Shown piece by piece: positions 4,503-41,821 of a DNA stretch of 48,529 bases. The DNA lies in NCBI GenBank assembly GCA_030038605.1, contig JASHSU010000160.1:1-48529 (forward strand), in the 5' to 3' direction. Origin of the DNA: Thermoplasmata archaeon. GTDB taxonomy: Archaea; Thermoplasmatota; Thermoplasmata; Lutacidiplasmatales; UBA184. How positions within the stretch are numbered: the first letter of the stretch is position 1; each line of letters starts with the position of its first letter. Both the position numbers and the translations under genes were made by a program. The notes under the pieces were generated by a model. It had not been told where the DNA came from, made no database searches, and was given only the letters and a program-made list of their open reading frames with translations.

Positions 4503-5344
4503 CCCGTAGCTCCGCCGCATTGACCATCGTCAACGCGCTGCCGACCGGAGTCGGCTGTGCCGTTGGGATCGACCGGTTCGTTACGGTCGAAGTGAGCGCG
4601 GAGGCTTCCCCGCGGGACCGAGTCCGATGCGAACCGCCCGCGTCCGCCACGCCGCTTGTCCTCGCCTGCCTCGCCGAGGCCCGGGCGTGCACCCAGACCG
4701 ACGGGGCGTGGGACGTGGCGGTACGCGTTCGATCGGACATTCCCTCCGGCAAGGGGCTCAAGAGTTCCAGCGCGGTCGCGACCGCGACCCTTCGGGCCGC
4801 CGGCCGAGCCTGGGGGGCGGAACTGGAGCAACTCGAGGCGGCTCGTCTTGCGGCCCGGGTGGGACGAGCGGTTGGGGTCAGCGCGACCGGTGCGCTGGAC
4901 GACGCCCTGGCCGGCCTGGCGTCGGGCTTCGTGACCACCGACAATCGGACGGATACGGTGCTGCGCCGCGACGCGGTCGACCCGGAGTGGACCGCGCTGG
5001 TCTGCGTTCCCGCGGGGACCCACCCGCCGGCCCCCTCGTTGATGGCCGCGTTCCGGAACGTCGAGGCGGAAGGACGGCGTGCGGCGGACGCGGCCCGCGC
5101 GGGCCGGTACGCGGACGCGATGCAACAGAACGGAGCCCTGGTCGCGCGCGCGCTGGGCTACGACCGCCCCGCGTGGAGCGACGCCGTCGTACGAGCCGGG
5201 GCGGTGGCGTTCGGGATCAGTGGCCTCGGCCCCGCCGTCGGGGTCATCGTTCCACGGGACCGGGCCGACACGGCGCTGCACGCGATTCCGCCCGACGCCG
5301 GGGAGCGCTTCCCCGTGCAGTTCGCGCGCGAGGCAGCCCCGTGA
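4490..5344 (+). CDS. aroK: Archaeal shikimate kinase (GHMP kinase superfamily)
   Basis: 285 aa; SDIPSGKGLKSSSAVATATLRA (GHMP ATP motif), GALDDALA; position between aroDE and aroA. Confidence 0.9.
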   Translation: MHGVARSSAALTIVNALPTGVGCAVGIDRFVTVEVSAEASPRDRVRCEPPASATPLVLACLAEARACTQTDGAWDVAVRVRSDIPSGKGLKSSSAVATATLRAAGRAWGAELEQLEAARLAARVGRAVGVSATGALDDALAGLASGFVTTDNRTDTVLRRDAVDPEWTALVCVPAGTHPPAPSLMAAFRNVEAEGRRAADAARAGRYADAMQQNGALVARALGYDRPAWSDAVVRAGAVAFGISGLGPAVGVIVPRDRADTALHAIPPDAGERFPVQFAREAAP

Positions 5345-10071: not shown

Positions 10072-11264
10072 CCGACCCGTGGTCCGAGTTTGCCGCCGGG
10101 GCCGACGCGGCGGAGTCGGCCGTATACTTCGAGCGGGCGCCCGGCCACGCCGGACGGAGCGGGTATGCTGCCTGGTTCACCGGAAACGAGCCGGGCCATT
10201 CGCTGCATCGGCTCTCCGACCTCCAGGAGCTGGAGCGAGCGGCCGGCGTCCACCTGCGACGCCACCCCCGCGGTGCCGTGATGGGGTATCTGGGATTCGA
10301 CGCCGTGGGCCTCATCGAACCGGTCCTGGGTTCGGGACCGACCGGCTCTCCGTTTCCTCTCGGGGAGTTCTACCTGGCCCCACGCATCCATGCGCGGACC
10401 ACGCGAGGGCGTCCGCGAGAGCCCGAACCCGCCGCCTCTCGGCCCTTGGCCCCGCCCATCGAGGACTCGTTGTCCCGACCCTCCTATCTCCGAGCCGTCC
10501 ACCGTTTGCGCACGGCCATCCGGGACGGTGAGGCGTTCCAGGTAGTGTTGGCCCACCGCCGAACCTGGCCGAGACCGGCCGACCTGCTCGCCAAGGCCGG
10601 ACGTCTCCGCGCTACCGAGCGATTCGCGTTCTTCTACTATCTCCGGTTCGGCGATCGAGTGGTCGTCGGGGCTACCCCGGAGTCGGTCGTCGAGGTCGAC
10701 GGCCGACGGGCGCGGGTCAACCCCATCGCCGGAACGATTCCCCGGGGGCCCCGGGCCGGTCGGGGACCACTGCACCGGGATCGGAAGGAACTCGCGGAGC
10801 ACCGGATGCTGGTCGACCTGGCTCGGAACGACCTGGGCCGCGTCGCCGTTCCGGGCTCCGTCCACGTCGTCGCCACGGAACGGCGCGTACGGTACGCCCG
10901 GTTGGAACACCTCGTCAGCCGCGTTTCGGCCCGGCTGGTCGACGGCACCACTCCCTGGGACGTCCTCCGCGCCACGTTCCCCGCCGGTACGGTCAGCGGC
11001 GCACCGAAGATTCGGGCGACCGAATGGCTGCGCCGCGAGGAGCGGACCTGGCGAGGTCCGTACGCCGGCGCGGTCGGCTGCCTGCGTGCCGGGGGACGGG
11101 GCGATTGGGCTCTCGCGATCCGGGGCGGATTCGCCGCCGGCAACCGACTCTACACGGCGGCGGGCGCGGGCGTGGTCTACGGCTCGCAGCCGGAGCGGGA
11201 GTTCGATGAGACCCTCCTCAAGCTATCTCACGTGGAAACGACCTTGGTCGAGGGTGCGGCATGA
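10068..11264 (+). CDS. trpE: Anthranilate synthase component I
   Basis: 398 aa, GTG start; GDRVVVGATPESVVEV, NPIAGTIPRG, RNDLGRVAVPGSV, FPAGTVSGAPKIRA. Followed by trpG. Confidence 0.93.
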   Translation: MTDPWSEFAAGADAAESAVYFERAPGHAGRSGYAAWFTGNEPGHSLHRLSDLQELERAAGVHLRRHPRGAVMGYLGFDAVGLIEPVLGSGPTGSPFPLGEFYLAPRIHARTTRGRPREPEPAASRPLAPPIEDSLSRPSYLRAVHRLRTAIRDGEAFQVVLAHRRTWPRPADLLAKAGRLRATERFAFFYYLRFGDRVVVGATPESVVEVDGRRARVNPIAGTIPRGPRAGRGPLHRDRKELAEHRMLVDLARNDLGRVAVPGSVHVVATERRVRYARLEHLVSRVSARLVDGTTPWDVLRATFPAGTVSGAPKIRATEWLRREERTWRGPYAGAVGCLRAGGRGDWALAIRGGFAAGNRLYTAAGAGVVYGSQPEREFDETLLKLSHVETTLVEGAA

Positions 11265-11842
11265 GAGTGCTGCTGGTCGACCACGAGGACTCGTTCGTCT
11301 ACAATATCGCCCAGGGCCTCGCGGCTCAAGGGGCCCGGGTAACGACCCTGCGGTCGACGCGCCCTGTTCGCGACGCGCTCCGCTGCGACCCGGACGCCGT
11401 CGTCCTGTCGCCGGGTCCCGGTCATCCCTCCGACCGTCGCTTGACGGCGCTGAGCCGCGCGCTGTTGAAGCGGTGGGACGAGGAACGGCCGTTTCTCGGG
11501 GTGTGCCTGGGCCACCAGCTAATCGGCACCCACTACGGGGCGGTCGTGCGTCCCGGTAGGGCACCCGTCCACGGCGAGGCCGGGCCGGTCGTCCACGACG
11601 GTCAGGGTGTGTTTCGCGGTGTGCGGTGCCCGACCCCCGGGGCCCGATATCACTCGCTCATCGTGGAAGAGCGCGGGCTCCCCGCCTCGCTCGAAATCTC
11701 CGCGCGGGACCCGGACGGAGTGATCATGGGGATGCGGCACCGGCACCGGGCGGTCGAGTCGGTCCAGTTTCATCCGGAGTCGTACTTGACACCCGAGGGG
11801 GGCCGTATGCTGTCCAACTTTCTTCGAGGGACCCGACGGTGA
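11261..11842 (+). CDS. trpG: Anthranilate synthase component II (glutamine amidotransferase)
   Basis: 193 aa; DHEDSFVYNIAQ, LSPGPGHPSD, FLGVCLGHQLIG, VQFHPESYLTPEG. Confidence 0.94.
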   Translation: MRVLLVDHEDSFVYNIAQGLAAQGARVTTLRSTRPVRDALRCDPDAVVLSPGPGHPSDRRLTALSRALLKRWDEERPFLGVCLGHQLIGTHYGAVVRPGRAPVHGEAGPVVHDGQGVFRGVRCPTPGARYHSLIVEERGLPASLEISARDPDGVIMGMRHRHRAVESVQFHPESYLTPEGGRMLSNFLRGTRR

Positions 11843-12873
11843 GTCGGTCCACCCTGGCCCGGTTGCTGGAGGCGAAGCCCCTTCGACCTCGCGAGGCGCG
11901 TACCGTGCTCGACGAGCTCACGAATCCAGCGGCGCCCGAGCTCGAGCGAGCCGCCCTCCTGATCGCCCTCACCTCCCGTCCCGCCTCCGGAGTGGAGTGG
12001 GCCTCCCTGGCGGGGGAGCTCCGACGTCGCGCGGTGCCGGTCGGGGTAGGGTCGGCGCGTCGAGCGATCGACCTCTGCGGCTCCGGAGGTGCCCCCCGTC
12101 CGTCGTTCAACGTTTCGACGGTGAGCGCGTTCGTGGTCGCCTCGGCTGGCGTGCCGGTGCTGAAGCACGGGAATCGGAGCGCTCGCGGACTCTGTGGGTC
12201 GAGCGACCTGTTGGAGGCCCTGGGCCTCCCGGTCACGACGTCCCGCGCGTTCGGCCGGGCCTCCTACCGGGAGGAGCGACTGGCCTTCCTACACGCCCCG
12301 CTCTATCATCCGGCCACGGCGGCGGTCGCCCCGCTCCGCCGGGCCCTCGGGATTCCGACCATCTTCAATCGACTCGGACCCCTGTCGAACCCGGCCCGCG
12401 TCGGCGCGCAGGTCGTCGGCTGGGGGTCACGGGCCGAGGGCCCGGTGGTCCGGGAGGCTCTCCAGCGGTTGGGTGTCGGCCACGGAGCGACGATGACGTC
12501 CGAGGACGGGTGCGACGAATTCTCGCCGAAGCGACCCACCCATCTCGTCGTGTGGCATCATCGCCGGCACCGGACGGTCCGGGTGATCCCCTCGGATTAT
12601 CTGGACCGCGAGGACCGCCACGGGCCGTGGGGACCGCTCGTGCCGCACGAGGCGGCCGAGGAGACCGAGCGGATCCTGGCCGGGGGCGGAGGGGCGCGAC
12701 GGGGATCGGTACTTCTCACGGCCGGCGCGGCCCTCTGGGTGACCGGGCGAGCCCGCACGTTCCGCGCCGGCGTCGAGCGGGCCCGGCTCGAGCTGGACGG
12801 AGGCGGCGCCGAACGTCGACTCCGTCGCCTGCGTCACATCGCCGAGCGTTACCGCGGGGGGGCACGCCGATGA
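11839..12873 (+). CDS. trpD: Anthranilate phosphoribosyltransferase
   Basis: 344 aa, GTG start; DLCGSGGAPRPSFNVSTVSAFVVASAGVPVLKHGNRSARGLCGSSDLLEALG. Confidence 0.93.
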   Translation: MSRSTLARLLEAKPLRPREARTVLDELTNPAAPELERAALLIALTSRPASGVEWASLAGELRRRAVPVGVGSARRAIDLCGSGGAPRPSFNVSTVSAFVVASAGVPVLKHGNRSARGLCGSSDLLEALGLPVTTSRAFGRASYREERLAFLHAPLYHPATAAVAPLRRALGIPTIFNRLGPLSNPARVGAQVVGWGSRAEGPVVREALQRLGVGHGATMTSEDGCDEFSPKRPTHLVVWHHRRHRTVRVIPSDYLDREDRHGPWGPLVPHEAAEETERILAGGGGARRGSVLLTAGAALWVTGRARTFRAGVERARLELDGGGAERRLRRLRHIAERYRGGARR

Positions 12874-13658
12874 CCTCGGGGTTCCTCCGGCACATGGTCG
12901 CGGCCACCCGGGCGGACATCGCCCGCGGCGACTACCTCACGGAGATACCGGAGCGGAAGTACGGAACTCGACCCTCGCTGCGCGCGGCCCTCGTCCGCGG
13001 CACGCTCATCGCGGAGTACAAACGCCGCTCGCCCGGGGCGAGCACGCCGGGCCTACCCCAGGGCTCGGTCGAGACATTCCTGCGGGGGGCGGCGGAGGCC
13101 GAAGCGTACTCGGTTCTGGCCAGCCGACCAGAGTTCGGCGGGGCGCCCGCGGACGTGGCGGCGGTCGCCGCGGCAACCGCCCGCCCGGTGCTGTTCAAGG
13201 ATTTCGTGGTGTCCCCGGTGCAGATCGAGGCGGCCCGGCGCGCGGGGGCGAGTGCGGTCCTGCTCATCGCCCGGCTGGAGGACGCCGGCCTGCTGGACCA
13301 GCCGCTCTCGTCCCTCGCGCAGGTCGCGCACGACCGCGGCCTCGAGGTCCTGCTGGAGTGGCACCGTCGGGCAGAGCTAAGACGCACGGAGGACGTACCC
13401 GCGGACGTGTTCGGAATCAATGTCCGGGACCTCGATACGCTCGAGATTCGGCGGGACGTCGCGGCCGAAACGTTCGCCGCCGCCCGGGACCGGCACCCCC
13501 TGGTCGGGATGAGTGGCGTACTCGGACCCGAGCAGGCCCAGACGTTCTGGGAGGATGGAGCGGACGCGCTGCTCATCGGATCGGAGCTCGCCCGTACGAA
13601 GGACCCCGCGACGTTCCTTCGAGGTCTGAGGCCGGTCGCCGGCCGGAGCGGAGCATGA
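12870..13658 (+). CDS. trpC: Indole-3-glycerol-phosphate synthase
   Basis: 262 aa; LIAEYKRRSPGAS, VLFKDFVVSPVQIEAARRAGASAVLLIARL, LEVLLEWH, FGINVRDLDTLEI. Confidence 0.93.
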   Translation: MTSGFLRHMVAATRADIARGDYLTEIPERKYGTRPSLRAALVRGTLIAEYKRRSPGASTPGLPQGSVETFLRGAAEAEAYSVLASRPEFGGAPADVAAVAAATARPVLFKDFVVSPVQIEAARRAGASAVLLIARLEDAGLLDQPLSSLAQVAHDRGLEVLLEWHRRAELRRTEDVPADVFGINVRDLDTLEIRRDVAAETFAAARDRHPLVGMSGVLGPEQAQTFWEDGADALLIGSELARTKDPATFLRGLRPVAGRSGA

Positions 13659-14302
13659 AGACGTTCGTGAAATTCTGTGGGCTATCGACGCCCGAGACGG
13701 TCGCCGAGGTGCCGGCGGGGGGAGCGGCTGGATTCGTCCTCGACGTACCCACCTCGCCGCGGAACCTGACGCTCGAGCGGGCGACCGAGTTGATCCCGCT
13801 CGTACCGAACGAAGCCGAGGCATGGGCGGTCGTGGTCGACCCGTCGGCGGACCTGATCCACCGGCTCTTCGACGAGGTCGGGGTCGACCGGGTCCAGGTC
13901 TACGGCCCCGTGCCCGAGGGCCTCGATTTTCTGGAGCTGCACCATCTGGTCCCTTCCGTCCCGGTGCCGTCGACGCCGGCGGGCGGGGCGGACCCGACCG
14001 TCCCTCCCGCCGAGTCGTTCCCGCGGATCCACCTCGACGCGGCCGGTGGCCCGGTGCCGGGCGGGAGCGGCACCCGTCCGGACTGGGAAGTCTGCGCTCG
14101 ACTGGTCGATGCGAACCCCGGGCGGAAATTCATTCTCGCCGGTGGATTGACGGCCGAGAACGTCGCGGACGCCCTGGCCACCGTGCGTCCGTGGGGCGTC
14201 GACGTCTCCTCGGGGACCGAGACGTCGCCCGGCCACAAGGATGTCGCGAAGATGCGGGCCTTCGCCGCGGCGGTGCTGGCGACCGAGACGTCCCATGCCT
14301 AG
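13655..14302 (+). CDS. trpF: Phosphoribosylanthranilate isomerase
   Basis: 215 aa; [65 protein letters not shown]. Confidence 0.9.
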
Positions 14303-15455
14303 GCACTTCGGGCCGTACGGCGGCGCCTTCGTCCCGGAAACGCTCGTACCGGCCCTCCAGGAGCTGGACGGTGCCTGGCGCGCCGCCCGGAAGGACCCTG
14401 CGTTCCGGGCGGAGCTCCGTCGTTTGTCCCGGACGCTCGGAGGACGCCCCACGCCCCTGTACTTCGCCGCCCGACTGACCCGCCGGGCGGGGGGCGCGGA
14501 GATCTGGCTCAAGCGGGAGGACCTGGTCCACGGCGGGGCGCACAAGTTCAACAACGCACTCGGGCAGGGTCTCCTGACCCGACGGATGGGCAAGCACCGG
14601 TTGATCGCCGAGACCGGCGCGGGCCAGCATGGCGTGGCGACCGCGATGATCGGCGCGGCCCTCGGTCTGCGCACCGAGGTGTACATGGGTGAAGTCGACA
14701 TGGAGCGCCAACGTCCCAACGTCGACCGGATGCGCTTGCTGGGGGCCACGGTCCATCCGGTCACGACCGGCCGCCGCACGCTCAAGGACGCGATCAACGC
14801 GGCGCTGCGCGACTGGATCGCCAACGTCCGCACGACCCATTACCTGCTGGGTTCGGCCGTCGGGCCGCACCCGTACCCCTCCCTGGTCGCGGACTTTCAG
14901 AGTGTCATCGGCAAGGAGATCCGACGGCAATCGACCGCCGCGTTCGGACGGCTCCCCGACTTGGTGGTCGCGTGTGTCGGCGGCGGCTCGAACGCGATCG
15001 GGACGTTCCATCCGCTCCGACGGACCCGGGTCGAGCTGCTCGGCGTCGAGGCCGGAGGCGTCGGTGGCCGCGGCCCGGGGGCGGCCTCGCTCACGCGCGG
15101 GCGCCCGGGCATCCTCCACGGGAGCTTCTCCTACGTGCTGCAGGACCACGACGGCCAGGTGGCGGAGACCGAGAGCATCTCCGCCGGCCTGGACTACCCT
15201 GGCGTCGGGCCGGAGCACGCCTGGCTCCGGGACACCGGGCGGGCCCGCTATGTGGCGGTGCGGGACCGGGACGCCCTGCGGGCGTTCCACTGGCTGGCCG
15301 AGGACGAGGGGATCCTGCCCGCGCTCGAACCGTCGCACGCGCTGTTCGCCGCGGTCCACGAAGCCCGCCGACGACCCCGGCGCGAACGGATCGTCGTGAC
15401 CCTCTCGGGACGGGGCGACAAGGACCTCGCGGTGGTGACCCGTGCGGCTCGGTGA
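14295..15455 (+). CDS. trpB: Tryptophan synthase beta chain
   Basis: 386 aa; [62 protein letters not shown]. Confidence 0.95.
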
Positions 15456-16224
15456 AGCGCTCGCCGCGGCCCGGCGCGACGGTCCGCTCCTGGTCCCCTA
15501 CGTGTTGGTCGACCGGCGCCGCGCCCACCGCTGGACCGCGCTCGCTCGCGCCCTGCGCGAGGGCGGGGCGGCCGCGGTCGAGCTGGGTTTTCCGTTCTCC
15601 GACCCGATCGCCGACGGGCCGGTCCTGGAGGCCGCGGGCGGTCGCGCTCTGGCCGACGGTACGCGTTGGTCCGACCTGGAACGCGCCGCGCGCGCCGTGG
15701 CTCCGATCCTGCCGACCGCCGTCATGACCTACGCCAACCCGGTCTGGCACCGCGGTCTGGCCCCGGCGCTGGTGCGCCTGCGTTCCTGCGGGGTCAGCGG
15801 GCTGATCGTTCCGGACCTCTCGTACGAGGAGTCCGCCCCCTGGTCCCGCGCCGCCGGCGTCGCCGGCATCGACCTGGTCCTCCTCGCGGCCCCCGGTCTC
15901 GCGTCGTCCCGCGTCGGCCGGATCGCCCGGCGGAGCCGGGGCTTCCTGTATCTGGTGTCCCGGTACGGCACGACCGGCGTGGGGCCGGATCGTGCGTCCG
16001 ACGACCTGGGCCGGCTCGTTCGGGCCGCCCACGCCGCCCAGCCTCGCCTGCCGGTCCTCGTGGGGTTCGGGGTCCACGACGCCGAGTCGGCGGACCGGGC
16101 CCGGGCGACCGGAGCCGACGGGGTCGTGGTCGGCACCGCCCTCGAGCAGCGGATCGCGCGCGGGGACGGGGAGCGCTCGATCGCCCGCTGGCTCCGCACG
16201 CTGAACGGCCGAGCGTCCGACTAG
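15442..16224 (+). CDS. trpA: Tryptophan synthase alpha chain
   Basis: 260 aa, GTG start; [47 protein letters not shown]. Confidence 0.93.
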
Positions 16225-29603: not shown

Positions 29604-32600
29604 TCACTTCGGCGGCGCTCGGCGGAACGGCCAGAACGGCGTCGCCCCCGACTCGGCCGGGGCGTCGGAGGGCGGTGCGCTCTCGGTCGTCGTGGTCGGC
29701 GGCGCGGAGTCCTTGGCGGCCGCCGGCGCCGGGGTGGGCGCGACATGCCCGTCACTCTGCAGCCGGGCCAGGGCGTCCCGCGCCTTGGCCAGGGCGGCCG
29801 GGTAGTCGGTCTCCCGCAGCCGGACCGACTCGGCCAGCAACGCCCGGGCCTCGGACGTGTCGACCCGACGGTCGGCGGCGCGGCTCAACGCCGCGTCGAT
29901 AAGGTAGTGCAGATTCATGAGCTCGCGATGGAGCGACTTGCGCAGCGCCAGTTCCTCCTCCGCCGCGAGCAGCTGACGCGCGGCGTCCAGGTGCTGGCCC
30001 GACTTCGCCAGGGCACCAAAGGCCTCGTACCGTTCCCGGACCGGACCGACGCTCACCCGGAGCCCGTCGGCGGCGAAATTGATCTCCGTCAACAGGTCGG
30101 ACTGTCGGCGCGTGAACGGTTCGACGATGGCGTGCTCGAGCGCCTCGGTGGCCCGCCGGAAGAGCGCCTCGCCCTCGGCGAGTCGCCCAGCGTCCAGCGC
30201 CACGCGGGCCTCACTGAAGGTCTGCATCACCGGCGTCGTGTCCACCCCCAAGCGCTCGCCGACCCACAGTCGCTCCTTGAGGGTGCGCAGCCCGCCCTCC
30301 AAGGCGTCCTTCCGATGCTTGCGCGCCGTGTCGAGCTCGCCGCGAAGCAGGGCGAGCGCGCCGACGAAATCGCCACGGCCCCGGAGCGTCGCGAGCTGAC
30401 CCGCGATCTCGTTCCGCCGGGCCCGCTCGGTCTCGCTGGGCGTCGGACCCCGTCCGAACTCGGTCTCGACCTCCCGCCACCGGCCCTCGACGACGGACTC
30501 GAACGCCTTGCGACTCGCGTTCTGCGCCCGCCCGACCGCTTCCCGGGCGATCTTCCACTCGCGGGCCCGTAGCGCAGCCTCCGCCTCCATGACGACCGCC
30601 TCGACCGGGTCCACCTCGGTGGTCAGGCCCTCCTTGCGCGCGCTGTCGACCAAACGGCGGAGCTCGCCGACCGGGCCGGCGAACAGGCGTTCGATCGCCC
30701 AGCGGCCCAGCTCGGTCGCCTCGCGCGACGCCCGGATCGCTTCCGGATACGCTCCCTGGCTCATCAGCCCGCGCGCCTCGTCCACCCGCTGCTGGGCCTC
30801 CTGCGTGTTGGCGCCGAACCCCGTGGCCTCCTGGACCTGGGACTCGGCCGCTCCGAAGGCCTCCATCGCTCGGCGGTGACTTTCCCGGCCCGCGACGAGA
30901 CTGTCGGTCGCCAGGATCGCATGCTCGAGCACGTCGGGGAACGCTCGCTTCTCCAGGAACTTGCGCGCGGTCGCCATCTCCTCGACGGCGTTCGGGACGA
31001 CCACCCCTTCCTTCGCGGCGAGGGCGAGCGAGCGCTCGGCCGCCTCGATCGAGCCCTCGGCGATCCGCCGCTGGAGCTCGGCCCGCTCCAGCTCCGCCTC
31101 GCTCTTGGAGGCGAACTGTACGGCCTCGACGGGGCGTCCCTCGTCGAGCGCCATCCGGGCCTGGTGCAGCAGGTTCTCGGCGACGGTGGTGTCGCTGCCC
31201 TCGTTCCGCAGCCGAGTGACGGTCGCGCGGAACCCGGCGAGCGTCTTGGACACATGATGGTAGGTCGCCTGCAACACCTCGCGCTCGAGCGGACCCCCCA
31301 GCTCGATGGCGCGCGCGTACTCCCGGCGTCCCAGCGCGGTCTCCACCTGCTCCATGGTCGACCGGGCCACGCCCAAGTCGACGCGGAGGAGCTCGGCCTG
31401 AGCGATCGCCTCGCGCGCCCGCTTGGCCACCCGTTCCGCGTGCTCGACGAGCCCCCGCGTGCCGACGAACTCCGCGCGCGCCGCATCCAGGAGCGCGGCC
31501 GCCCCGACCGGTACCGGTAGGGCGATCCGTCGGCGCGCCTCCGCGAGCGGGGCCACGATCCGGTCCAGGTCGACGCCGGCGCCGCGGGCGATGTCCAGGT
31601 CGCGCTCGAGCGAGCGGAGGTTCTCTTCCAGGATCGGCACGAGAATGGCGATCAGGTCGTCGTGCAACTGGCGGGTAGCGGTCCGGGTCGCTTCGGCCGG
31701 TGCGGTCGGTCGCTCCGTGCGGATCCCCTGCAGCCGGTGCCCGAACGGGTCCATCGGCGCGGACAGGCGCCGGCCGTCCTCGAGCAGGCGCTCGACCTCC
31801 CCGATCAACCGGTCGGTCTCGGCGCGGGCGGCCCCCTCGTGGAGCCGCTGCTGAACGGCCTGCAGCGTCGCCCGGGCGGCGTCAAAGTCGAGCGACTGCA
31901 CCGCCAGACGGACGGAGCGGATCGGCTCGTAGAAGGGCTCGGGGTCGACGCCGAGCTCGCGCAAGTCGCCGAGCTGCTCCTGAGCCGCCGCGACCTCCTC
32001 GACGATCGACTGGGCCAGGGTCCGGGTGCGGATCGAGTTCTCTTCCAGCGTCGACGCCAGCCGGTAGGCCTCCGCGTAATGTCCGGCGCGGGCCGCCGCC
32101 TGGGACTCCTCGAGCGCGGTCCGGAACTGACCCAGGTCGAGGCCGAGCGTCTCGAGCTCGACGAGCGCCAACTTGGCGTGGGAGATCGCCTCCTCGCTGC
32201 GCAGCAGCTGTTGCTGATGGGCGCGGGTCCGGATCTCCTGGGAGGCCCGGGACGCCTTGACGAAATCGCCCATGTTGAAGATCTGCTGGACCTCATCGAT
32301 CTGGTGCTGGATCTCGTCCCCGGGGCCGCCCATCGCCTCCAGCACCCGGCGCTCTTCCTCGAGCAGGTCGACCAGCGCGCTGGCGTGGACCGCGAAGACG
32401 GAGGCGAAGTCGCGCTCGGCCTTGCGCAGCGACTCGATCGAGTTGACCAGGTCCTCCTTCACCCGGAGCGTGACGTCCGCGTCCGCGAGCAGCCGCCGCA
32501 CCGGGGCGGTGAGCGCGTCGTCCGGGATGTCGACGAATCCGGCCTCCATCTCCTGCACGCGACGGGCGACGTACGGGGTCGCGGCGATCCGGAGTTCGAC

Positions 32601-34160
32601 CTCGACCCGGGCCAACTGCTCGGCGCCCCCGGCCAGGTCGCCCTGGTCGAGCAGGGTACGAACTCGGTCGAGCGAGGCCGACGTCTCGGCCGGGAGGAAT
32701 CCGTGGTCCTTCGCGTACTCGCGCACCCGGTCGAGGGCCGTCCAGCGCTCAGTGTAGTGGGTGAGCGCCTCGCGTCCCAACCGGACGACCGACTCCCGTA
32801 GGAGCTTGCGGGCGTCGTGGACTTCCGCACGGTCCAGGTGGGCCCGCGCTTTCGACAGGGTCGCATCGAACCCCTCGGAGGAGAAGCCGGAGTTGTGGAA
32901 ACGCCCGACCATCTCCTCGAGGGCCTGCAGCTCCTCGCGCGCGGCGTCGAGGTCCTCCGTGAGCTGGGTGACGCGGTCCGCCGCCTCCTGACTCGCCGCC
33001 AGGGCCTCGGAGTAGATCTTGAGACGGAGCGCCTCGCGCGCCCGGTTCATCGCCGCGAACACTTCGGTCGGGTCCCGACCCAGGCGACGGGCCTCGGTGA
33101 TCCGGGGCCGAACCTCGTCCAGGAGGGCGGCGACGACCGCGACGATCGGCTCTTCCGCCTTCGCTCGAGCCTCCGCTAACAGTCCGGGAATCTCGCCCGC
33201 CGGTGCGAACGGAAGTTTGGCCAGCGCCGCGTCGACGGCGACCCGGGCCTCGGTCGGGTCGGTACCGTACTCGGGCAACGCATCCAACGAGAGGCGCAGC
33301 GAACCGAGGACCTGGGCCGTTCGCTCACGCAGGGCTTCTCCGAGGCGTTCCATCGCCCCGTCGATCGCGGCCACGGTCTCGGGCCAACGCTCGGGGGGCG
33401 CCCCGGCATCATCGCGCAGGGCGGCCTCGAGCTCCGCGGTCGATGCGCCGTGCTCCTTGGCGACGGTCAGTCGCGCTTCGGCCGCCGAACGGGCGGTGTC
33501 GTGCTTGGCCTTGGCCTCGGGTAACTGGTCGCGTTCCAGGACGAGCAGTTCGTTGATCGCTTCCGCGACCCGGCCCTCCTTGGCGGGCTGCACGGCCGCA
33601 TCGACCTTTCGCCGGAACGTGTCGAGCGCGTCCCCGGTCAGGCCGGCCCATTCGGCGAGCGCCTTCCCCCGGGCCTGGGCGACGGAAATGTTGTCCGCGC
33701 CGACTTTGGCCAGCTCCTCCTCAACGCGGAGCAGTCGGGCGACCATATCCGGCCAGGTTCGGTCCGGCCCCGGCGTTCCCAGCGCGGCGATCTCGTCGCG
33801 CAGGGTCGGCGATACGGACACCCCCGCCGCCGTCAGCCGGACGACCGACTCGTTGGTCTTCTCGCGACGGGCCTCCAGCGTCGGCGGGACCTTGGTCGCG
33901 AGGTAGTCGAGCAGCGCCCGGGCCTGGATCTCGACCCCCTCCCAGTCCGAGCGACGTACCAGTTCGTGGAGCTGCCGGGAACGTTCGGGAACCTCGGGAA
34001 GCACCAGGCCGAGGCGCTGAAGCTCGGCGACCCGCTCGTCCGCTTCCTTCTGGAGCGTCTCGCCGGCCTGCCGCTTGCGCTTGAGTTCCTCGGCCTTCTC
34101 CTGGAGGATGCGGGTGAGACGGGACGACGGGACCGCCCCCATCCCTCCCGGACCTGACAT
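29604..34160 (-). CDS. Giant all-helical repeat protein (1518 aa)
   Basis: Single long ORF; degenerate ~50-60-aa unit (GvD...v...l.eAr.AL..g.y.eA......A) recurring at least 10 times; Pro/Thr/Ser-rich C-terminal tail ending GATPFWPFRRAPPK. Confidence 0.85.
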   Translation of the reverse strand: MSGPGGMGAVPSSRLTRILQEKAEELKRKRQAGETLQKEADERVAELQRLGLVLPEVPERSRQLHELVRRSDWEGVEIQARALLDYLATKVPPTLEARREKTNESVVRLTAAGVSVSPTLRDEIAALGTPGPDRTWPDMVARLLRVEEELAKVGADNISVAQARGKALAEWAGLTGDALDTFRRKVDAAVQPAKEGRVAEAINELLVLERDQLPEAKAKHDTARSAAEARLTVAKEHGASTAELEAALRDDAGAPPERWPETVAAIDGAMERLGEALRERTAQVLGSLRLSLDALPEYGTDPTEARVAVDAALAKLPFAPAGEIPGLLAEARAKAEEPIVAVVAALLDEVRPRITEARRLGRDPTEVFAAMNRAREALRLKIYSEALAASQEAADRVTQLTEDLDAAREELQALEEMVGRFHNSGFSSEGFDATLSKARAHLDRAEVHDARKLLRESVVRLGREALTHYTERWTALDRVREYAKDHGFLPAETSASLDRVRTLLDQGDLAGGAEQLARVEVELRIAATPYVARRVQEMEAGFVDIPDDALTAPVRRLLADADVTLRVKEDLVNSIESLRKAERDFASVFAVHASALVDLLEEERRVLEAMGGPGDEIQHQIDEVQQIFNMGDFVKASRASQEIRTRAHQQQLLRSEEAISHAKLALVELETLGLDLGQFRTALEESQAAARAGHYAEAYRLASTLEENSIRTRTLAQSIVEEVAAAQEQLGDLRELGVDPEPFYEPIRSVRLAVQSLDFDAARATLQAVQQRLHEGAARAETDRLIGEVERLLEDGRRLSAPMDPFGHRLQGIRTERPTAPAEATRTATRQLHDDLIAILVPILEENLRSLERDLDIARGAGVDLDRIVAPLAEARRRIALPVPVGAAALLDAARAEFVGTRGLVEHAERVAKRAREAIAQAELLRVDLGVARSTMEQVETALGRREYARAIELGGPLEREVLQATYHHVSKTLAGFRATVTRLRNEGSDTTVAENLLHQARMALDEGRPVEAVQFASKSEAELERAELQRRIAEGSIEAAERSLALAAKEGVVVPNAVEEMATARKFLEKRAFPDVLEHAILATDSLVAGRESHRRAMEAFGAAESQVQEATGFGANTQEAQQRVDEARGLMSQGAYPEAIRASREATELGRWAIERLFAGPVGELRRLVDSARKEGLTTEVDPVEAVVMEAEAALRAREWKIAREAVGRAQNASRKAFESVVEGRWREVETEFGRGPTPSETERARRNEIAGQLATLRGRGDFVGALALLRGELDTARKHRKDALEGGLRTLKERLWVGERLGVDTTPVMQTFSEARVALDAGRLAEGEALFRRATEALEHAIVEPFTRRQSDLLTEINFAADGLRVSVGPVRERYEAFGALAKSGQHLDAARQLLAAEEELALRKSLHRELMNLHYLIDAALSRAADRRVDTSEARALLAESVRLRETDYPAALAKARDALARLQSDGHVAPTPAPAAAKDSAPPTTTTESAPPSDAPAESGATPFWPFRRAPPK

Positions 34161-34294: not shown

Positions 34295-34681
34295 CTACGT
34301 CCGGGAGATCTGGCGCCGGCCCATGGCATCCAGGTACTGGACCTCACCGCCCGGGGAGATCCGTCCCTTCGTTTCCTCGTCGATGGCCAGGCTGAACGTC
34401 TCGTAGTTCTCGAGGTCCATCAGCTGAACCTCGGTATCGGTCATCGACAGCACCTGGGCCTGCCGCTTGCCGATCATCGGCACCTGCACCTTGTGAGTCA
34501 CCGGAAAGACGACACTCCGCTTGCGCTGGTCGAACAACCCGACCGCGTCGATGCGGGCTTTCGCTTCCCCGTGCTTTCCCGGTTTGGAGGTCTGGATACT
34601 GAGGATACGGCACGGCTCCTCGTCGATGAGCATGTAGCGCCCCTCCTTCAGCTCGCGAACTTCCTGCTGGGTCCAGGCCAT
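34295..34681 (-). CDS. Translation initiation factor aIF5A
   Basis: 128 aa; EVRELKEGRYMLIDEEPCRILSIQTSKPGKHGEAKARIDAVGLFDQRKRS with the hypusination-loop Lys (PGKHG). Confidence 0.95.
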   Translation of the reverse strand: MAWTQQEVRELKEGRYMLIDEEPCRILSIQTSKPGKHGEAKARIDAVGLFDQRKRSVVFPVTHKVQVPMIGKRQAQVLSMTDTEVQLMDLENYETFSLAIDEETKGRISPGGEVQYLDAMGRRQISRT

Positions 34682-34797
34682 CGGAATTCTCCTCGAGGGT
34701 GCGGGGACGACCTCGGGGGGATAAGAGTTGCGTGCGCGGGGGCCGCACCGGCGCTCGCAAACTCGACCCGAGGGTTTATTCCTCGCACCCTCCCTCA

Positions 34798-37700
34798 ATG
34801 GGTACCGCCGCGCGGGTCGGTTGCATGGGGGTCCTCGCGGAAAAGTACCGACCGAGCGAGGTCGAACGGGCGGCCCGGGAACTGTGGGCCACCCGGGGGT
34901 GGCCCCGACCGGACGGAGTCATCGGACGCTCGACGGCGCCGGTCGTGCGGCAGTACCTCGGCTCGTTGTTGCCCGGCGACGACCCCGGGCTCGTCGCATT
35001 TCGGTCGGTGGCCGCCGACGCGGACGCCCGGTATCTCGGGCTCGCCGGCCGTCGCGCGCTCGGGACCCTTCGCCGGGACTTCGACGGAGAGGAACCGACC
35101 GGTGCCCTGCTCCAGGGACTGTCCGTCTGGACCGGCGGCAGTGCCGGCAGCCCCGTCGACACGGGGGACCGGCACGCTGGGATCGAGACCCTCCTGGGCC
35201 GGATCGCGGCGTTGGGTCTCGTGGTGACCCGGGACACCTCCCTTCGTATCTGCCCCTCCTGCGCGCAGGCGCGCACGCCCGAGCGGATCATTTACCAACA
35301 GGAGGAGGGGGATGCGTACCTTGTCCGATTCCCTCTCCCGGTCACCGAGGGGGTCGTACATGCCCTGGTTTGGGTCGACGCGCCCTGGCGTCTCCTGGGG
35401 GCCAGTGCCCTCCTGGTAAACCCGACCCTGCCGTACGTGGTCGCGCGGTACCGACGTCGTGGCGTGGACGAGCGGATCCTCACGTCGCGCGCCTCCCTCG
35501 CTCGGCTGCTCGAATGGCTTCCGGGCGGTGAGGTCGAAGTCATGGAGGAGGGGAACGGGACCCATTGGCAGGGGCGCGCCTACCAGTACCCCCTCCGCCA
35601 CGAGTTCCCCATGGGCGGGGAGTTGAGTCCTCCGTCCGGGACCGTCCTGGCGGTCCCCGACGTGACCGACAGCGGTACGGGGATCGTGCCGTTGGTGCCG
35701 GGGCACGGGGGCACGGACGCCCAGATCGCCGACCGTCTCGGCATCACGGGCTGGCCCCTGGTGACCCCCCGCGGACAGCTGGACTTCAACCTCGCGCACA
35801 AGTACTCCGGTCTCGACCTGACCACCGCGAACGAGTTCGTCGCGCGGGACCTCGCCGAGAACGGTGCCCTGTTCGCCCGGCTGCGGGTGCGTCGGGGCGT
35901 TCCGCATTGTGCCCTGTGCGGCACCGCGCTCGTCTGGGCCCCCGGTCGGGCCTGGTGCCTCGAGCCGACGCGGTTGCCGGCGGAGCGCCGGGACCTGTAC
36001 CGACGTCTGTTACCGCACGACCCTCCCGTCGGTCAGGTCGAGGTCGCCGCCTGGCCGGTGAGCGAACCCCAGACGGCCTCGCCCGGTCCGGGCGTCGTGT
36101 CGCTGCTCGAATGCCCGCAGTGCGAACGGCTCGCCCCACTGTCCGCCGGACCGGAGTGCACCTGCGGCAACCATCGCAACCCGGTGGCCCGTCGACTGCT
36201 CCCGTCGATCGCGGGAGCGCTCGGCGCCTGGGCCCGGTTCGACCCGTTTCCCCCGGGCGATTCTGCCTGGCTGTACGTCAACGAACGTCGGCGCGCTCCG
36301 GCCGTCGTCCATCACCTGGCGGCCATGTCGGGGGTGAGCGGGGCGCCGAACGACGTCGGCCTCACCCTGCTCCCCGGAGTGCCGGAAGGCGGGATGCCCG
36401 AATTGGTCGCCTCGCTCGGGGCCGATGCGGTCCGAGCCGCGCTCGTCCGCGGAGAACGTCGGGAAGGTTCCGGCCCGACCTTCCCGGACCGATGTGCGCA
36501 GGAGGCCCGCCGTCTCGAACGGTTCTGGTCGGTCGCTCGTGACACCCTCGACCGGTGCGACGCCGGTATGTTGGCGACGTTCGCCCAACCGATCGCCGGG
36601 TCGCTCGGCGAGCTGGAGACCGAGGACCGGGCCCTCCTCGCCCGGTGGGAGCGGGTTCGACTGGCCGTACTGGCCGACTACGATCACCAGGCGGCGGGCG
36701 CCGCCTACCGCGCGCTGGCCCGATTCATGGCGACCGACCTGGAGGAGTACGTCGCTCGCGTCCGGCCCCGCCTCGACCGCTCGGCGACGACGCCGACGCG
36801 ACGGGGAGCCCTACGAACGCTTCACCATGTGCTGAGGGGCATCACCATCGACCTGGCGCCCGTCGCTCCGCATATCGCGGAGGTCGTGCACGGGGCTCTC
36901 GTCCCCGGGCGGACGAGCCTGTTCGAGACCTCGGTCGACCCGCTGGACTCCGCCGTGCTCGACGAGAGCTCGATGAAGGCGTGGGACCGATGGGGCTCGG
37001 TCGAGCGAGCGATCGCCCGATTCCGCCGGCGGGTGGGTCTGGCCCCATCGACGGCGATCCCGGCGATCGTCGCGGTGGCCCCCAACGACGAACTGGCCGC
37101 CCATCTGCGCTCGGACCGGTCGACGGTGCAGCGCCTCGCTCGCGTCACGAAGTTCGAGGCGTTCGGCCCCGGGACCCCGTGGACCGGCCGCCAGCGAACG
37201 TTGGAACCGGTCCTGTCCGAGATCCAGCGGGCCTATCCGACGGAAGCGAACCAGATCCTCCACCTCCTCCGACGCATGCCGGCTCGAAAACGTGGGGAGG
37301 CCGCGACGGGGGAGGAACTGTCGGTCGTCATCCACGGCCTCTCCCGACGGATCCTCCCTTCGATGGTCCAGTACACGGAGACGCTCCCCGAACGGTTCGT
37401 GCCGATACCGTGGGAGCTGGGCGAACTGTACGCCGAGCTGCCCGCACCGCAGCCCGTTCCCAAGCAGGTGCCGCCTCCGGTCTCGCCCGATGCGTTCCGC
37501 CTGCTCGCCCGCGTGGAGCGGGCACTCCGACGCGCGTCGGCAACCGAGGGGTACCGCCCGGGGCCGGTCCTCGTCGCCGTCGTCGACCCGCTCGCCAGCG
37601 AACTGCGCGCGTCGGCGACCGTTCTCGCATCCTTCCTGGGTGTACCGGAAGTGCGGGTCGTGGACCCGAGCGCCGAGGTTCCGGGCCCGAAGGAGGTGTA

Positions 37701-39777
37701 CGGACGGACTCGCACGGGGGTTCGCTGGTGGGCCCAGCTGACCGGCATCCCGCCCCGCCCTCGGCGCTCCAAGCACCGGGCCCTTCGCCCCCGGATGCCG
37801 CGGGTGCGCGCCGGAAAGTCGCTGGGGGGTATCCTCGGAGGGGACGTCGATTACGCCAGTGACGAAGAAGTCACGAAGGTCGAACAGATCCGCTCCCTCG
37901 CGCAGGAGTTGGACGGCGTCCTCGGAGCTCCGCTCCTGGGACCGACCAAGATCGCGACCGCTTGGGCGGCGGGTTTTCGGTCGACCGACGATTTCCGCGC
38001 CGCGCCGTTCGAACGGATCGAGCGGTTGCGCGGCTTTGAGCGACCGATCGCCGACCAGTTGGTCCGAAAGCTCGGCGGCGTCGTTCCGCCACCGGCCGCT
38101 CGGCCCCGGAGGACGCTGACGGCCCTCCCGCCTCCTTCGGACGGGGGCCCGGGGCTGCCCGAGGTACGACACTATGCGGAGGACTCGGTCCCCGTTCCTC
38201 CGCCCCCATTCGCCGGGCTGTCGGTCGAGCGTCCCGCGCCGAGCCCGCCTCCCGGCCGCCTGCGAACCTCGCCCGCTGCGACGGTTCCTCCCGTGCCGGC
38301 GATCAAAGCCTCGATGCCTGTACCTCCCGCGCCGCCTTCCGGTCTCGAGGAACCGCCGGTCGAGAAGGTGCCGTACGTCGCTCCACCCGTGGACTCGCCT
38401 CAGGATTCCGCGCCGGACGCAATGGCCGTCGAGCCGGCGCCACCGCCTCCCGCGGAGCCCGCGGTCGCCGACTCCGCGACCTTTTCCGCAGCGCCGGCGG
38501 CACCCCAATCTCCCGTCCCGGTCCCCGAGAACGCGCTCGAGCCGGCGGCTGAGGTACGACCCGACGACGACCCTGACACGTCAGCGCCCGGAGTGCCCCT
38601 CACGGAGGATTTGCCGGCCCCTCCTTCGACCGAGATTACCGCGGAATCCCCATCGCCTCCAGTCCCGCTCGAGGCGATGGCTCCGCCGTCGATCGAGACC
38701 GCGCCGGAGGCGCCCTCGCCGACCGCGTCGACCCCGGGGCCCGAGGACCGTCCCGAACCGGCGCCCGGAGTTACGGAGTCCGACCGGGCGGCCGAGGCCA
38801 ACGTCTCGGTCGAAGGGATTCCTGCCGAGCCGGGGGCCCAACGGGTGGACGCGCCCCTTCCGCTCGATGCTCCGACGACCCCCGAAGGACCCTCGGACGA
38901 GACTGTGAGCCCCGCGCCCACGCCTCGGGAGGTCACGCCCGAGCCGAATCTCGAAGCACCTCCGAACGTCGATCCGCCCGATTCTCCGGCGGCGTCAATC
39001 GACCCGACGGTGCCTCCGGAAGTAGTGGCCGAACCACCACCCTCACCGCCCGCGGAGCCCAGTGAGGCCGCAGTCCCCCCTGATGCGACCCTGGCGGCCG
39101 AGGCTCCCGTTCCCGGGCCCGCCGAGATCGACGCCCCGGCGTCCACGGTCGAGGTCCCAAGCTCGTCGCAGGACGAGCCGGTGCCAGAGGCCGAGGGAGG
39201 CACCGACGTCACCCCCGCGGTTCCGGAGACGGTCACGGTGACGGAGCCTCCGCCCTCGCCACCGGACCTTCCCTCCCCACCGCCGGAAGTGCTGCCGGTT
39301 GCCCCTCTGCCTCCTCCGACCCCGATCGGTGGAATCTCCCTCATCGTGGCCCCGTCCTACCTGCCCGCCTTCTCGCAGTTCCTCGAGGCGACCGCGGCCG
39401 GTCATCGCGGACTGTGCGTCGTCCGCGAATCCCCGGATCGACTGAGGGCCCACGTCGGACCCCGGCCGGTGGAGATCTATTGGCTGACGAACCTGGGCCG
39501 GGGCCTTACCCTACGTCCGAACGACCTGGAAGCATACGGTGCGTTCCTCCAGAAGGCCGTCGAGCAGGACCGGATCACGGCCGTGTTCCTCGAGGGGATC
39601 GAATACCTCACGCGGGTTCACGGGTCCGAACGGATCATCGAGCGCCTGAGCGCCTTCCACGTCCAGGCCCAGGCCCATCAAGCGCGCGTGTGGGTGTATC
39701 TCCATCCGGACCTGCTGCCGGCCGCCGACCTCGCCCAGTTCACGGCCGCCTTCGGCGGCGCCGCCTCCGCCGATTGA
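34798..39777 (+). CDS. IleRS-like pseudo-synthetase fused to HhH, Pro/Ala-rich linker and C-terminal DUF835
   Basis: 1659 aa. IleRS-like: EKYRPSEVERAARELW; CP1-like LVWVDAPWRLLGASALLVNP, GTGIVPLVPGHGGTDAQIADRLGI; Zn-like PHCALCGTALVW; anticodon-domain-like DYDHQAAGAAYRALARFMATDLEEYVARVRPRL, LAPVAPHIAEVVHGAL. HhH-like: LLGPTKIATAWAAGFRSTDDFRAAPFERIERLRGFERPIADQLVRKLGG. DUF835: GGISLIVAPSYLPAFSQFLEATAAGHRGLCVVRESPDRLRAHVG...YWLTNLGRG...LEGIEYLTRVHGSERIIERLSAF. HIGH and KMSKS not found. Confidence 0.8.
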   Translation: MGTAARVGCMGVLAEKYRPSEVERAARELWATRGWPRPDGVIGRSTAPVVRQYLGSLLPGDDPGLVAFRSVAADADARYLGLAGRRALGTLRRDFDGEEPTGALLQGLSVWTGGSAGSPVDTGDRHAGIETLLGRIAALGLVVTRDTSLRICPSCAQARTPERIIYQQEEGDAYLVRFPLPVTEGVVHALVWVDAPWRLLGASALLVNPTLPYVVARYRRRGVDERILTSRASLARLLEWLPGGEVEVMEEGNGTHWQGRAYQYPLRHEFPMGGELSPPSGTVLAVPDVTDSGTGIVPLVPGHGGTDAQIADRLGITGWPLVTPRGQLDFNLAHKYSGLDLTTANEFVARDLAENGALFARLRVRRGVPHCALCGTALVWAPGRAWCLEPTRLPAERRDLYRRLLPHDPPVGQVEVAAWPVSEPQTASPGPGVVSLLECPQCERLAPLSAGPECTCGNHRNPVARRLLPSIAGALGAWARFDPFPPGDSAWLYVNERRRAPAVVHHLAAMSGVSGAPNDVGLTLLPGVPEGGMPELVASLGADAVRAALVRGERREGSGPTFPDRCAQEARRLERFWSVARDTLDRCDAGMLATFAQPIAGSLGELETEDRALLARWERVRLAVLADYDHQAAGAAYRALARFMATDLEEYVARVRPRLDRSATTPTRRGALRTLHHVLRGITIDLAPVAPHIAEVVHGALVPGRTSLFETSVDPLDSAVLDESSMKAWDRWGSVERAIARFRRRVGLAPSTAIPAIVAVAPNDELAAHLRSDRSTVQRLARVTKFEAFGPGTPWTGRQRTLEPVLSEIQRAYPTEANQILHLLRRMPARKRGEAATGEELSVVIHGLSRRILPSMVQYTETLPERFVPIPWELGELYAELPAPQPVPKQVPPPVSPDAFRLLARVERALRRASATEGYRPGPVLVAVVDPLASELRASATVLASFLGVPEVRVVDPSAEVPGPKEVYGRTRTGVRWWAQLTGIPPRPRRSKHRALRPRMPRVRAGKSLGGILGGDVDYASDEEVTKVEQIRSLAQELDGVLGAPLLGPTKIATAWAAGFRSTDDFRAAPFERIERLRGFERPIADQLVRKLGGVVPPPAARPRRTLTALPPPSDGGPGLPEVRHYAEDSVPVPPPPFAGLSVERPAPSPPPGRLRTSPAATVPPVPAIKASMPVPPAPPSGLEEPPVEKVPYVAPPVDSPQDSAPDAMAVEPAPPPPAEPAVADSATFSAAPAAPQSPVPVPENALEPAAEVRPDDDPDTSAPGVPLTEDLPAPPSTEITAESPSPPVPLEAMAPPSIETAPEAPSPTASTPGPEDRPEPAPGVTESDRAAEANVSVEGIPAEPGAQRVDAPLPLDAPTTPEGPSDETVSPAPTPREVTPEPNLEAPPNVDPPDSPAASIDPTVPPEVVAEPPPSPPAEPSEAAVPPDATLAAEAPVPGPAEIDAPASTVEVPSSSQDEPVPEAEGGTDVTPAVPETVTVTEPPPSPPDLPSPPPEVLPVAPLPPPTPIGGISLIVAPSYLPAFSQFLEATAAGHRGLCVVRESPDRLRAHVGPRPVEIYWLTNLGRGLTLRPNDLEAYGAFLQKAVEQDRITAVFLEGIEYLTRVHGSERIIERLSAFHVQAQAHQARVWVYLHPDLLPAADLAQFTAAFGGAASAD

Positions 39778-39856: not shown

Positions 39857-40435
39857 CTACGGGCAGGTGCCCACGGCCGAGCACTGCTGGCTGACCTGGG
39901 TCACGCTGTTCAGCGTGATCGTGGCCGTCGCGGGCGAACCCAGGTCGTAGTAGAGGACGAACGTCTGCGCCGTCCCCGGCACGGTGGTCTGGGTCTCCAC
40001 GTACACGACGACAGTGGTGACGGTCGGCACCGTGCCGGTGGAGACCGAGATCTGCATCTCGACCTCCGTACTCGCCGGGGCGGTGGTCGCCTCGGTGAAC
40101 TTCCAGTAGTGGGTGATGTCGTTGACCGTCGGCGCGTTGATGGAGTAGCTCGTACCCGTCGCGGCCAGCACGGTGGGCGTGGCGGCCGTGGTCGACAGGG
40201 CCGTCGGCGTGCCCGTCTGGGTCGTGACGCCGGCCGATGCTTCGGTCCAGTAGGTCAGTGCCGCCGTGCCGTGGTAGACTCCGGCACCGGTCTCGGTGGG
40301 GCCCTGGGTGACCGCGAAGGACGCGGCCATGACCCAACTGCCGCCGATGACGAGCAGGGCGACGATCGTTCCGCCAAGGACGTGACGTGGTTTCAGTCGT
40401 GGTGTGCTGTGGTTGGAGGTGTTGGCGTGAGCCAT
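39857..40435 (-). CDS. Small membrane-anchored/secreted protein, paralogue 1 of 3
   Basis: 192 aa; N-terminal TM/signal (HVLGGTIVALLVIGGSWVMAASF), beta-rich, ends QQCSAVGTCP. A6 tract ~22 nt upstream as possible TATA element. Confidence 0.7.
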   Translation of the reverse strand: MAHANTSNHSTPRLKPRHVLGGTIVALLVIGGSWVMAASFAVTQGPTETGAGVYHGTAALTYWTEASAGVTTQTGTPTALSTTAATPTVLAATGTSYSINAPTVNDITHYWKFTEATTAPASTEVEMQISVSTGTVPTVTTVVVYVETQTTVPGTAQTFVLYYDLGSPATATITLNSVTQVSQQCSAVGTCP

Positions 40436-40544: not shown

Positions 40545-41120
40545 TCAGGGACAGTGCCCGACCGAGGTGCACACCAGGACGTCGACCTGCATCGTCTGGA
40601 TGGTGACCCCGCTCGGCCCGAACGACCCGGCGTCCCAATAGAGCGTGAACGTCAACGCGGCCGTCGGGTGGGTCGCCTGCGTTTCCAAGTACACCGTCTC
40701 GAGGACGGCGGGTCGGCTCAGTCCGTCGGTGAACCGCAGTTCCAGTTCGGTCGCGAGCGAGCCGGTCGTGCTTTCGGTGAACGACCACCGTACCGAGACG
40801 TTGCCGGCGGTGGACGGGTTGATGCGGTAGCTGGCCGACGTGACCGGCAGGAGCGTCGGGATCGCCGCGGTCACGGAGGCGGCCCCGGGGACCGGGGTCG
40901 GGATGTGCCAGATCTGGGTCGAGGCCCAGACCCAGTAGGTGGGCGTTGCTTCGCCGACATCGGCACCCTGGCCCTGCTCCGTCGCGCCCGGGCCGACCGT
41001 GGCCGGGGCGGCGCCACCCAGCCCGAACCACACGAACGACACCAGCAGCCCGACGGCGACGAGGACCCCCACCGTGAGACGACGCGGTGGCCGGCGGAGA
41101 GGGAAGGACCGGGCCGTCAT
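40545..41120 (-). CDS. Small membrane-anchored/secreted protein, paralogue 2 of 3
   Basis: 191 aa from MTARSFPLRR (ATG at 41120 overlapping the upstream stop); N-terminal TM; shares YRIN, WSFTEST, TELELRF, YLETQ, FTLYWD; ends VCTSVGHCP. Confidence 0.7.
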   Translation of the reverse strand: MTARSFPLRRPPRRLTVGVLVAVGLLVSFVWFGLGGAAPATVGPGATEQGQGADVGEATPTYWVWASTQIWHIPTPVPGAASVTAAIPTLLPVTSASYRINPSTAGNVSVRWSFTESTTGSLATELELRFTDGLSRPAVLETVYLETQATHPTAALTFTLYWDAGSFGPSGVTIQTMQVDVLVCTSVGHCP

Positions 41121-41707
41121 GGACAGGTCCCTACCGCCGGGCAGACAAGGGACACCTCCAGCTGATTGACCCAGGTGACCCCGGTCGCCTGGCCGGAATC
41201 CCAGTAGACGGTGAACGACAGTGGGGCCCCGAGGGCCCGGCGCTGGGTCTCGATGTAGGCCGTGGCCGTCACGGACGTCGTGGCTGTCCCGAAATGGTAC
41301 TGGAGGACGAATCGGAGCTCGATCTCCGTCGAGAGGGCGATCCCGACGGTCTCGTTGAAGACCCAAACGAGGGCCTGGTCCCCTGCCGTGAGCGTGTTGA
41401 TCCGGGTCGTGCTCGAGAGGACCGGCAACCGGGTCGGGGCCGTCGCGGTGCCGCTCCACAGTCGCACCACGCCGGCGGGGGACGTCCCCGCGAGTGAGCC
41501 CACCTGTTGCCACTGCGGCAGGAAGTCGGTCGGAGCTTGAAGGCCGGCCAGCGTCTCGGTGGAGTGGATGACCTGGAAGTGAGCGCCCAGCCCGACACCG
41601 GTGAGAGCGAGGAGGACTGTCACGACGGCGGTGAGCGCTACCGCATGACGTCGGACGTACCTCGCCCGGGTACGGCGGGCCCCGGGCCCCCCGCGACGAA
41701 ATCGCAT
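41117..41707 (-). CDS. Small membrane-anchored/secreted protein, paralogue 3 of 3
   Basis: 196 aa; N-terminal TM (AVALTAVVTVLLALTGVGLGAHF); shares RIN, WVFNETV, TEIELRF, YIETQ, FTVYWDSG; ends VCPAVGTCP. Confidence 0.7.
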   Translation of the reverse strand: MRFRRGGPGARRTRARYVRRHAVALTAVVTVLLALTGVGLGAHFQVIHSTETLAGLQAPTDFLPQWQQVGSLAGTSPAGVVRLWSGTATAPTRLPVLSSTTRINTLTAGDQALVWVFNETVGIALSTEIELRFVLQYHFGTATTSVTATAYIETQRRALGAPLSFTVYWDSGQATGVTWVNQLEVSLVCPAVGTCP

Positions 41708-41821
41708 CGACGGTCGGAACGAGAGTCTCGGTCCTCCGAGGACCGGCGCGGTGTCTCGGGAGATAACTCCTTCTCGGGAGTGGAAGCGCGCTCGGCGGCG
41801 CCCGGACGTCCGACAAGGCGG

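Follow-up and report, generated by a model that had tools for sequence, protein, structure and literature searches.

A conserved isoleucyl-tRNA synthetase paralogue without HIGH and KMSKS, fused to HhH and DUF835 domains, in soil archaea of the order Lutacidiplasmatales

What is the role of a second protein built on the plan of an isoleucyl-tRNA synthetase (IleRS) when it carries neither ATP-binding motif of the enzyme and ends in a DUF835 domain? The question is raised by one uninterrupted frame on the + strand (34798/34825-39777) of a 48,529-nt stretch of DNA, referred to here as the window. The whole gene (34825..39777, +) comprises a pseudo-IleRS body, an HhH domain, a linker and DUF835, and encodes 1650 aa from the ATG at 34825. 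Translation probably starts at this ATG, with ATG 34798 as the alternative, because Met1 is near-invariant across the alignment of pseudo-IleRS orthologues and a TTTAT element lies about 50 bp upstream; given the position of this conserved element, about 34775, transcription would be expected to begin at or beyond ATG 34798.

The N-terminal part (34825..35214) aligns with the HIGH half of the IleRS catalytic Rossmann fold. It is followed by a CP1 (editing-type) domain with zinc knuckles (35215..36174), which is the best conserved region, a remnant of the second catalytic half (36175..36504) with LLPGVPEGGMPELVASLGADAVRAAL in place of the KMSKS stretch, an anticodon-binding-type helical domain (PF08264; 36505..37104) and an IleRS C-terminal-type region (37105..37854), all on the + strand. 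The IleRS-like order that a sequence-only reading had assigned to the first ~900 aa agrees with the alignment to IleRS, which extends over about 860 residues. A profile built from 21 orthologues matched solved IleRS structures at up to 4.5e-51; the match is weak in an N-terminal stretch and strong in two others, profile positions 96-437 (CP1) and 529-859, the last taking in the first part of the C-terminal-type region. Profile-profile comparison with the same genome's own IleRS gave E 7e-37 over residues about 9-768 of P0002. Pfam Anticodon_1 matches P0001 at residues 610-755 (3.2e-12, 47 bits), which is only suggestive of tRNA binding. The NCBIfam ileS model TIGR00392 is also matched (1.7e-27), but the score of 96 bits falls far short of the equivalog cut-off, 621.4. 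Homology to IleRS, a class Ia synthetase, is evident in CP1, in the anticodon region and in some of the C-terminal region, and by sequence the body derives from an IleRS. An AlphaFold model of the ~1100-residue body, built from 4 sequences only, has a pLDDT of 39.

The three elements beyond the body had been recognized previously, and their limits are adjusted here. The HhH domain occupies about 37861..38094 (+), not ~37880..38085; this stretch of the profile matches the HhH of eL32, PolX and Hel308-type proteins, and pLDDT is mostly 76-87 over residues 1021-1090. The Pro/Ala-rich low-complexity linker, formerly put at ~410 aa (~38089..39327), is refined to 416 aa (38095..39327, +) with 29% Pro and 15% Ala; orthologue linkers are 71-585 aa long and contain 19-41% Pro. 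DUF835 (39328..39774, +) extends beyond the earlier end at ~39756. Its Pfam match (PF05763) covers residues 1532-1641 at 9.5e-11 and 42.1 bits, against a gathering threshold of 33.1. In a model of the domain from two sequences (pLDDT 81.5), the best Foldseek match was FlaH (ArlH) of Sulfolobus acidocaldarius (4yds, E 2.2e-5, TM 0.65 on the query), followed by many KaiC entries. No Walker A motif (GxxxxGK[ST]) was seen in the DUF835 domain alignment of the orthologues. DUF835 is thus predicted to share the fold of ArlH/FlaH and KaiC, lacking the ATP pocket, and has been classed as an inactivated KaiC (PMC5847659). In that account of archaeal signalling proteins it serves as a building block of regulators in Thermoplasmata and methanogens, which is a point of likeness; its listed fusion partners are REC and PAS domains and none is a synthetase body, unlike the partner in pseudo-IleRS (PMC5847659).

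The N-terminal ATP-binding position, where HIGH had been reported missing, is occupied by GDDPGL in the window protein, and HIGH is absent in 54/54 orthologues. GWDxHGLPxE has likewise gone from the N-terminal part. The KMSKS position, also correctly described as altered, aligns with a stretch beginning LLPGVPEGG, and no K[MLF]S[KR][ST] pattern occurs in any of the 54. By comparison, the true IleRS of the same family have HIGH in 41/45 and KMSKS in 40/45, with some of the remainder partial or variant. Class I synthetases require HIGH and KMSKS for adenylation, and the suggestion of a catalytically dead synthetase stands to this extent, that the alignment predicts loss of adenylation throughout the 54 orthologues. 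The sequence-only reading had also called for a search for a second, complete ileS; one is present in the same genome on another contig (C64:41671-44124, 778 bits), and a complete ileS accompanies pseudo-IleRS in relatives too. There can be little doubt that the gene encodes a conserved, adenylation-dead IleRS paralogue.

Orthologues, 33 to 77% identical to the window protein, are found in 71 of the 106 genomes of the order Lutacidiplasmatales and are confined to three genera of one family (g1, 60 genomes; g5, 5; g6, 6). A phylum sample of 390 genomes contained them only in that family (12 genomes at threshold). The archaea of this family come from soil. Among the relatives, those with names are contigs from two MAGs, AcS1-45 and SubAcS13-64, both of which appear in the Lutacidiplasmatales genome table of PMC9287336. 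All 37 orthologues whose 3' end lies inside the contig have DUF835, and the fusion, whose survey in relatives had been proposed, is therefore conserved. The dN/dS ratio (NG86) of the folded parts was 0.06-0.24 between the window and L009 and 0.12-0.43 between the window and L042, with HhH highest in the latter. CP1 with its zinc knuckles (0.09 and 0.12, respectively) and DUF835 (0.08 and 0.13) were among the lowest, and the linker gave 0.42 and 0.23 with dS near saturation. The zinc knuckles, CP1, anticodon-type domain, HhH and DUF835 are under purifying selection.

A recent duplication of the family's own ileS is disfavoured as the source of the gene. The pseudo-IleRS profile reached 137-267 bits on IleRS sampled elsewhere in Thermoplasmatota (about 190-267 for the best subtype), compared with 124-188 bits on the family's own IleRS. 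In the tree the own IleRS formed a 100/100 clade separate from the pseudo group; the AU test against joining the two was borderline (p 0.059), and long-branch pull is possible. At least two IleRS subtypes are spread over the families of Thermoplasmatota in the phylum sample (L161-L190); the IleRS of the window's family is one of these, and pseudo-IleRS scores nearer the other. The gene may descend from an ancestral IleRS that was displaced, an attractive idea but not a proven one.

Immediately upstream, the gene for aIF5A (initiation/elongation factor 5A; 34295..34681, -) is divergently oriented. This arrangement recurs in every orthologous locus with upstream sequence (L031 and L037 stop at the contig edge before it). 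The 143 bp intergenic region (34682..34824) contains two TATA-like elements, TTTAT near 34775 (+) on the pseudo-IleRS side and ATAAGAGTT (CTTATC on the - strand) near 34720 on the aIF5A side. In most loci the region is 130-185 bp long with TTTAT and ATAAG elements, which may represent two divergent TATA boxes.

Downstream of aIF5A is the gene for a protein of 1518 aa, CC1518 (29604..34160, -), which matched nothing in Pfam or, by sequence, in the PDB. Visually, it has a long stretch of ~40-50 aa repeats of helical appearance. Seven g1 genomes (86-97% complete) that have no pseudo-IleRS are also missing CC1518, with aIF5A present. On the ileS tree there are at least two separate co-losses of pseudo-IleRS and CC1518 among the better-assembled genomes; an independent-pairs sign test of co-loss, resting on only two to four independent events, was not significant. 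Five g1/g5 genomes with CC1518 only (G080, G017, G088, G054 and G069) are apparent exceptions to co-loss, explained by the position of the CC1518 gene at a contig end. CC1518 occurs without pseudo-IleRS in genera g2, g3, g4 and g7 and is therefore probably the older of the two. In most g1 and g6 genomes CC1518 ends in (F/I/L)WPF(R/K)R after a Pro/Ala-rich tail; among the copies read, the WPFRR-type motif is missing in those from genera without pseudo-IleRS and in those of g5. The motif is a possible dock for pseudo-IleRS, the match in occurrence being partial in that g5 copies are without it. One genome (G041) has two diverged pseudo-IleRS copies (G041:C20 and G041:C58; L050 and L028), each adjoining its own aIF5A and CC1518; these could be due to duplication or a mixed MAG.

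Within the body, the strongest constraint falls on residues 151-400, the best conserved part of the family alignment. The Zn-like Cys pairs seen earlier are near-invariant: C143, C146, C362, C365, C430, C433, C445 and C447 (P0002) lie at the IleRS zinc positions and each is conserved in at least 96% of 51 alignment rows. The changes from TTTPWTLPAN to VDAPWRLLGA and from the editing-site His to Pro, both noted in the sequence-only reading, hold up in the alignment with IleRS. The pocket residues (D185, W188, R189, H294 and D298 of P0002) were mapped in the present analysis to E. coli IleRS numbering in the 51 rows; the roles of T241, T243, T246, H333 and D342 are those given for the E. coli enzyme (PMC9023258). 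D342 and W245 are kept in 51/51 rows, T242 is replaced by Asp (50) or Glu (1), T246 by Arg (28) or Lys (23), and H333 is never His (0/51). T241 is Thr in 25/51 and Val in 22, including the window's copy, and T243 is retained in 1/51, being mostly Ala. The editing-hydrolase set T241/T243/H333/D342 is therefore incomplete in the family. Since retention or change is uniform at D342, T242, T246, W245 and H333, the pocket has been rebuilt rather than left to drift. Standard editing seems unlikely, given the frequent loss of T241 and the large basic side chain at the T246 position. Retention of Asp342 would also fit residual hydrolytic activity.

At roughly even odds (about 0.5), the dead paralogue is a regulator or scaffold that binds tRNA or aminoacyl-tRNA and is tied to translation through aIF5A and CC1518. 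Binding would be by the anticodon-type domain, CP1 and HhH, all retained domains of tRNA-binding type. With its acidic T242 position (Asp/Glu), its basic T246 position and Asp342 retained, the CP1 pocket would no longer hydrolyse Val-tRNAIle but would recognize the 3' end or else a small charged ligand. The tethered DUF835, an ATP-pocket-less KaiC/ArlH-like fold, would relay the bound state to a partner. Synteny and co-loss suggest that expression is coupled to that of aIF5A and that CC1518 is a functional partner; because of this coupling and partnership, the output may concern elongation or ribosome stalling. A more elaborate version is a translation-surveillance module of Lutacidiplasmatales, in which a displaced ancestral archaeal-type IleRS has become a sensor of aminoacyl-tRNA state; on ribosomes that are elongating or have stalled, its tethered, inactivated KaiC domain would carry the signal to aIF5A and to CC1518 as a scaffold. 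This version is speculative and, as a whole, improbable.

Alternatively, the IleRS fold may be a protein-protein scaffold for CC1518 and/or aIF5A with no RNA binding. In its favour are the co-occurrence with CC1518, the Pro/Ala-rich stretches in both proteins, and a faster evolution of the HhH, anticodon-type and C-terminal parts than of CP1 and DUF835. It is rather unlikely, however, as the HhH and anticodon-type domains are retained throughout the family alignment, and four genera have CC1518 without pseudo-IleRS.

A second alternative is that only the synthetic site is dead, and that the CP1 site still acts on aminoacyl-tRNA as a free-standing trans-deacylase or an SbzA-like transferase. 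Conservation is highest in the CP1/Zn region; Asp342, with its role in hydrolysis, is invariant and T241 persists in about half of the rows (25/51), while His333, which guards cognate Ile-tRNAIle against hydrolysis, has gone from every row. The E. coli IleRS variants H333A and T246A/H333A hydrolyse Ile-tRNAIle in trans (PMC9023258), and this therefore keeps an enzymatic role alive. SbzA of Streptomyces is a further likeness, being an IleRS homologue that occurs beside a true IleRS and functions outside translation, moving Ile from Ile-tRNA to a metabolite (PMC6331615). SbzA retains slightly changed HIGH and KMSKS motifs, however, and is encoded in an antibiotic cluster (PMC6331615); pseudo-IleRS has neither motif, and no small-molecule biosynthetic cluster was seen directly around its gene. 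In addition, the residue that positions the 3'-OH, T241, is replaced by Val in 22 rows including the window's copy; every row has Asp or Glu at T242, most have Ala at T243, and T246 has given way to Arg or Lys, which are bulky, and not to Ala. An active CP1 site is unlikely.

The constant divergent pairing with aIF5A could also indicate an enzyme that modifies this factor, by analogy with PoxA/EpmA, a LysRS paralogue that aminoacylates EF-P and so offers a precedent linking a synthetase paralogue to the EF-P/IF5A factor (PMC9437257). PoxA/EpmA is a class II protein with active adenylation; pseudo-IleRS shares the gene pairing only, and its ATP-binding motifs, expected of an adenylating active site, are missing. 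The modified-lysine loop of aIF5A, KPGKHG, is intact, and deoxyhypusine synthase (DHS) is present in 24/24 genomes tested, with or without pseudo-IleRS. The dead ATP motifs and the presence of DHS make an EpmA-like modification very improbable. In most genomes of the family the DHS family (PF01916) gives two matches of unequal score, those in the window genome being G000:C43:1974-2816 and G000:C141:4495-5379.

The ordinary explanations, namely the genuine IleRS of this organism, a pseudogene in decay or an artefact of assembly, have nothing of weight in their favour beyond the 77% completeness of the MAG, and can be rejected on the second ileS, the 37/37 DUF835 count, dN/dS well under 1 and an architecture and gene neighbourhood shared by dozens of MAGs.

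The known dead synthetase folds that serve as regulators are mainly from class II enzymes and eukaryotes. The HisRS-like domain of GCN2 is such a case, a dead synthetase fold used as a tRNA sensor and fused to a signalling module. GCN2, however, is eukaryotic, with a class II HisRS and kinase output, whereas pseudo-IleRS joins a class I IleRS to DUF835. Archaeal cases are LeuRS-I of Sulfolobaceae and LeuRS2 of Halobacteria, duplicates of a class Ia synthetase in organisms that also have a working copy, for which roles outside protein synthesis have been proposed; LeuRS-I has a disrupted CP1 and no aminoacylation (PMC9437257). LeuRS-I still makes leucyl-adenylate, LeuRS2 still aminoacylates weakly and, in the review text covered, a DUF835 fusion is described for neither, whereas pseudo-IleRS is IleRS-derived, without HIGH and KMSKS, and has one. 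No description of an IleRS body joined to HhH and DUF835 was found in the literature searched. Of the cases reported, LeuRS-I, LeuRS2, SbzA and PoxA come closest, and none combines the double loss of ATP motifs with this architecture. Pseudo-IleRS is a clean class Ia archaeal example, with dozens of orthologues, a fixed architecture, a rebuilt pocket and linkage to aIF5A. It offers a direct way to test the conversion of a synthetase to a sensor or scaffold, and a handle on DUF835 function and aIF5A partners in uncultured archaea.

On the 3' side of pseudo-IleRS, overlapping ORFs at 39857-40435 (-), 40545-41816 (-, C-terminal part) and 41117-41707 (-) encode small proteins that are related to one another and have a hydrophobic stretch in the N-terminal part and a C-x-x-V-G-x-C-P-like ending; two of the three have relatives in the same place in L009 and L042. 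Elsewhere in the window, the region at about 1225-16221 (+) resembles, by N-terminal sequences only, an archaeal aromatic amino-acid (shikimate/tryptophan) cluster.
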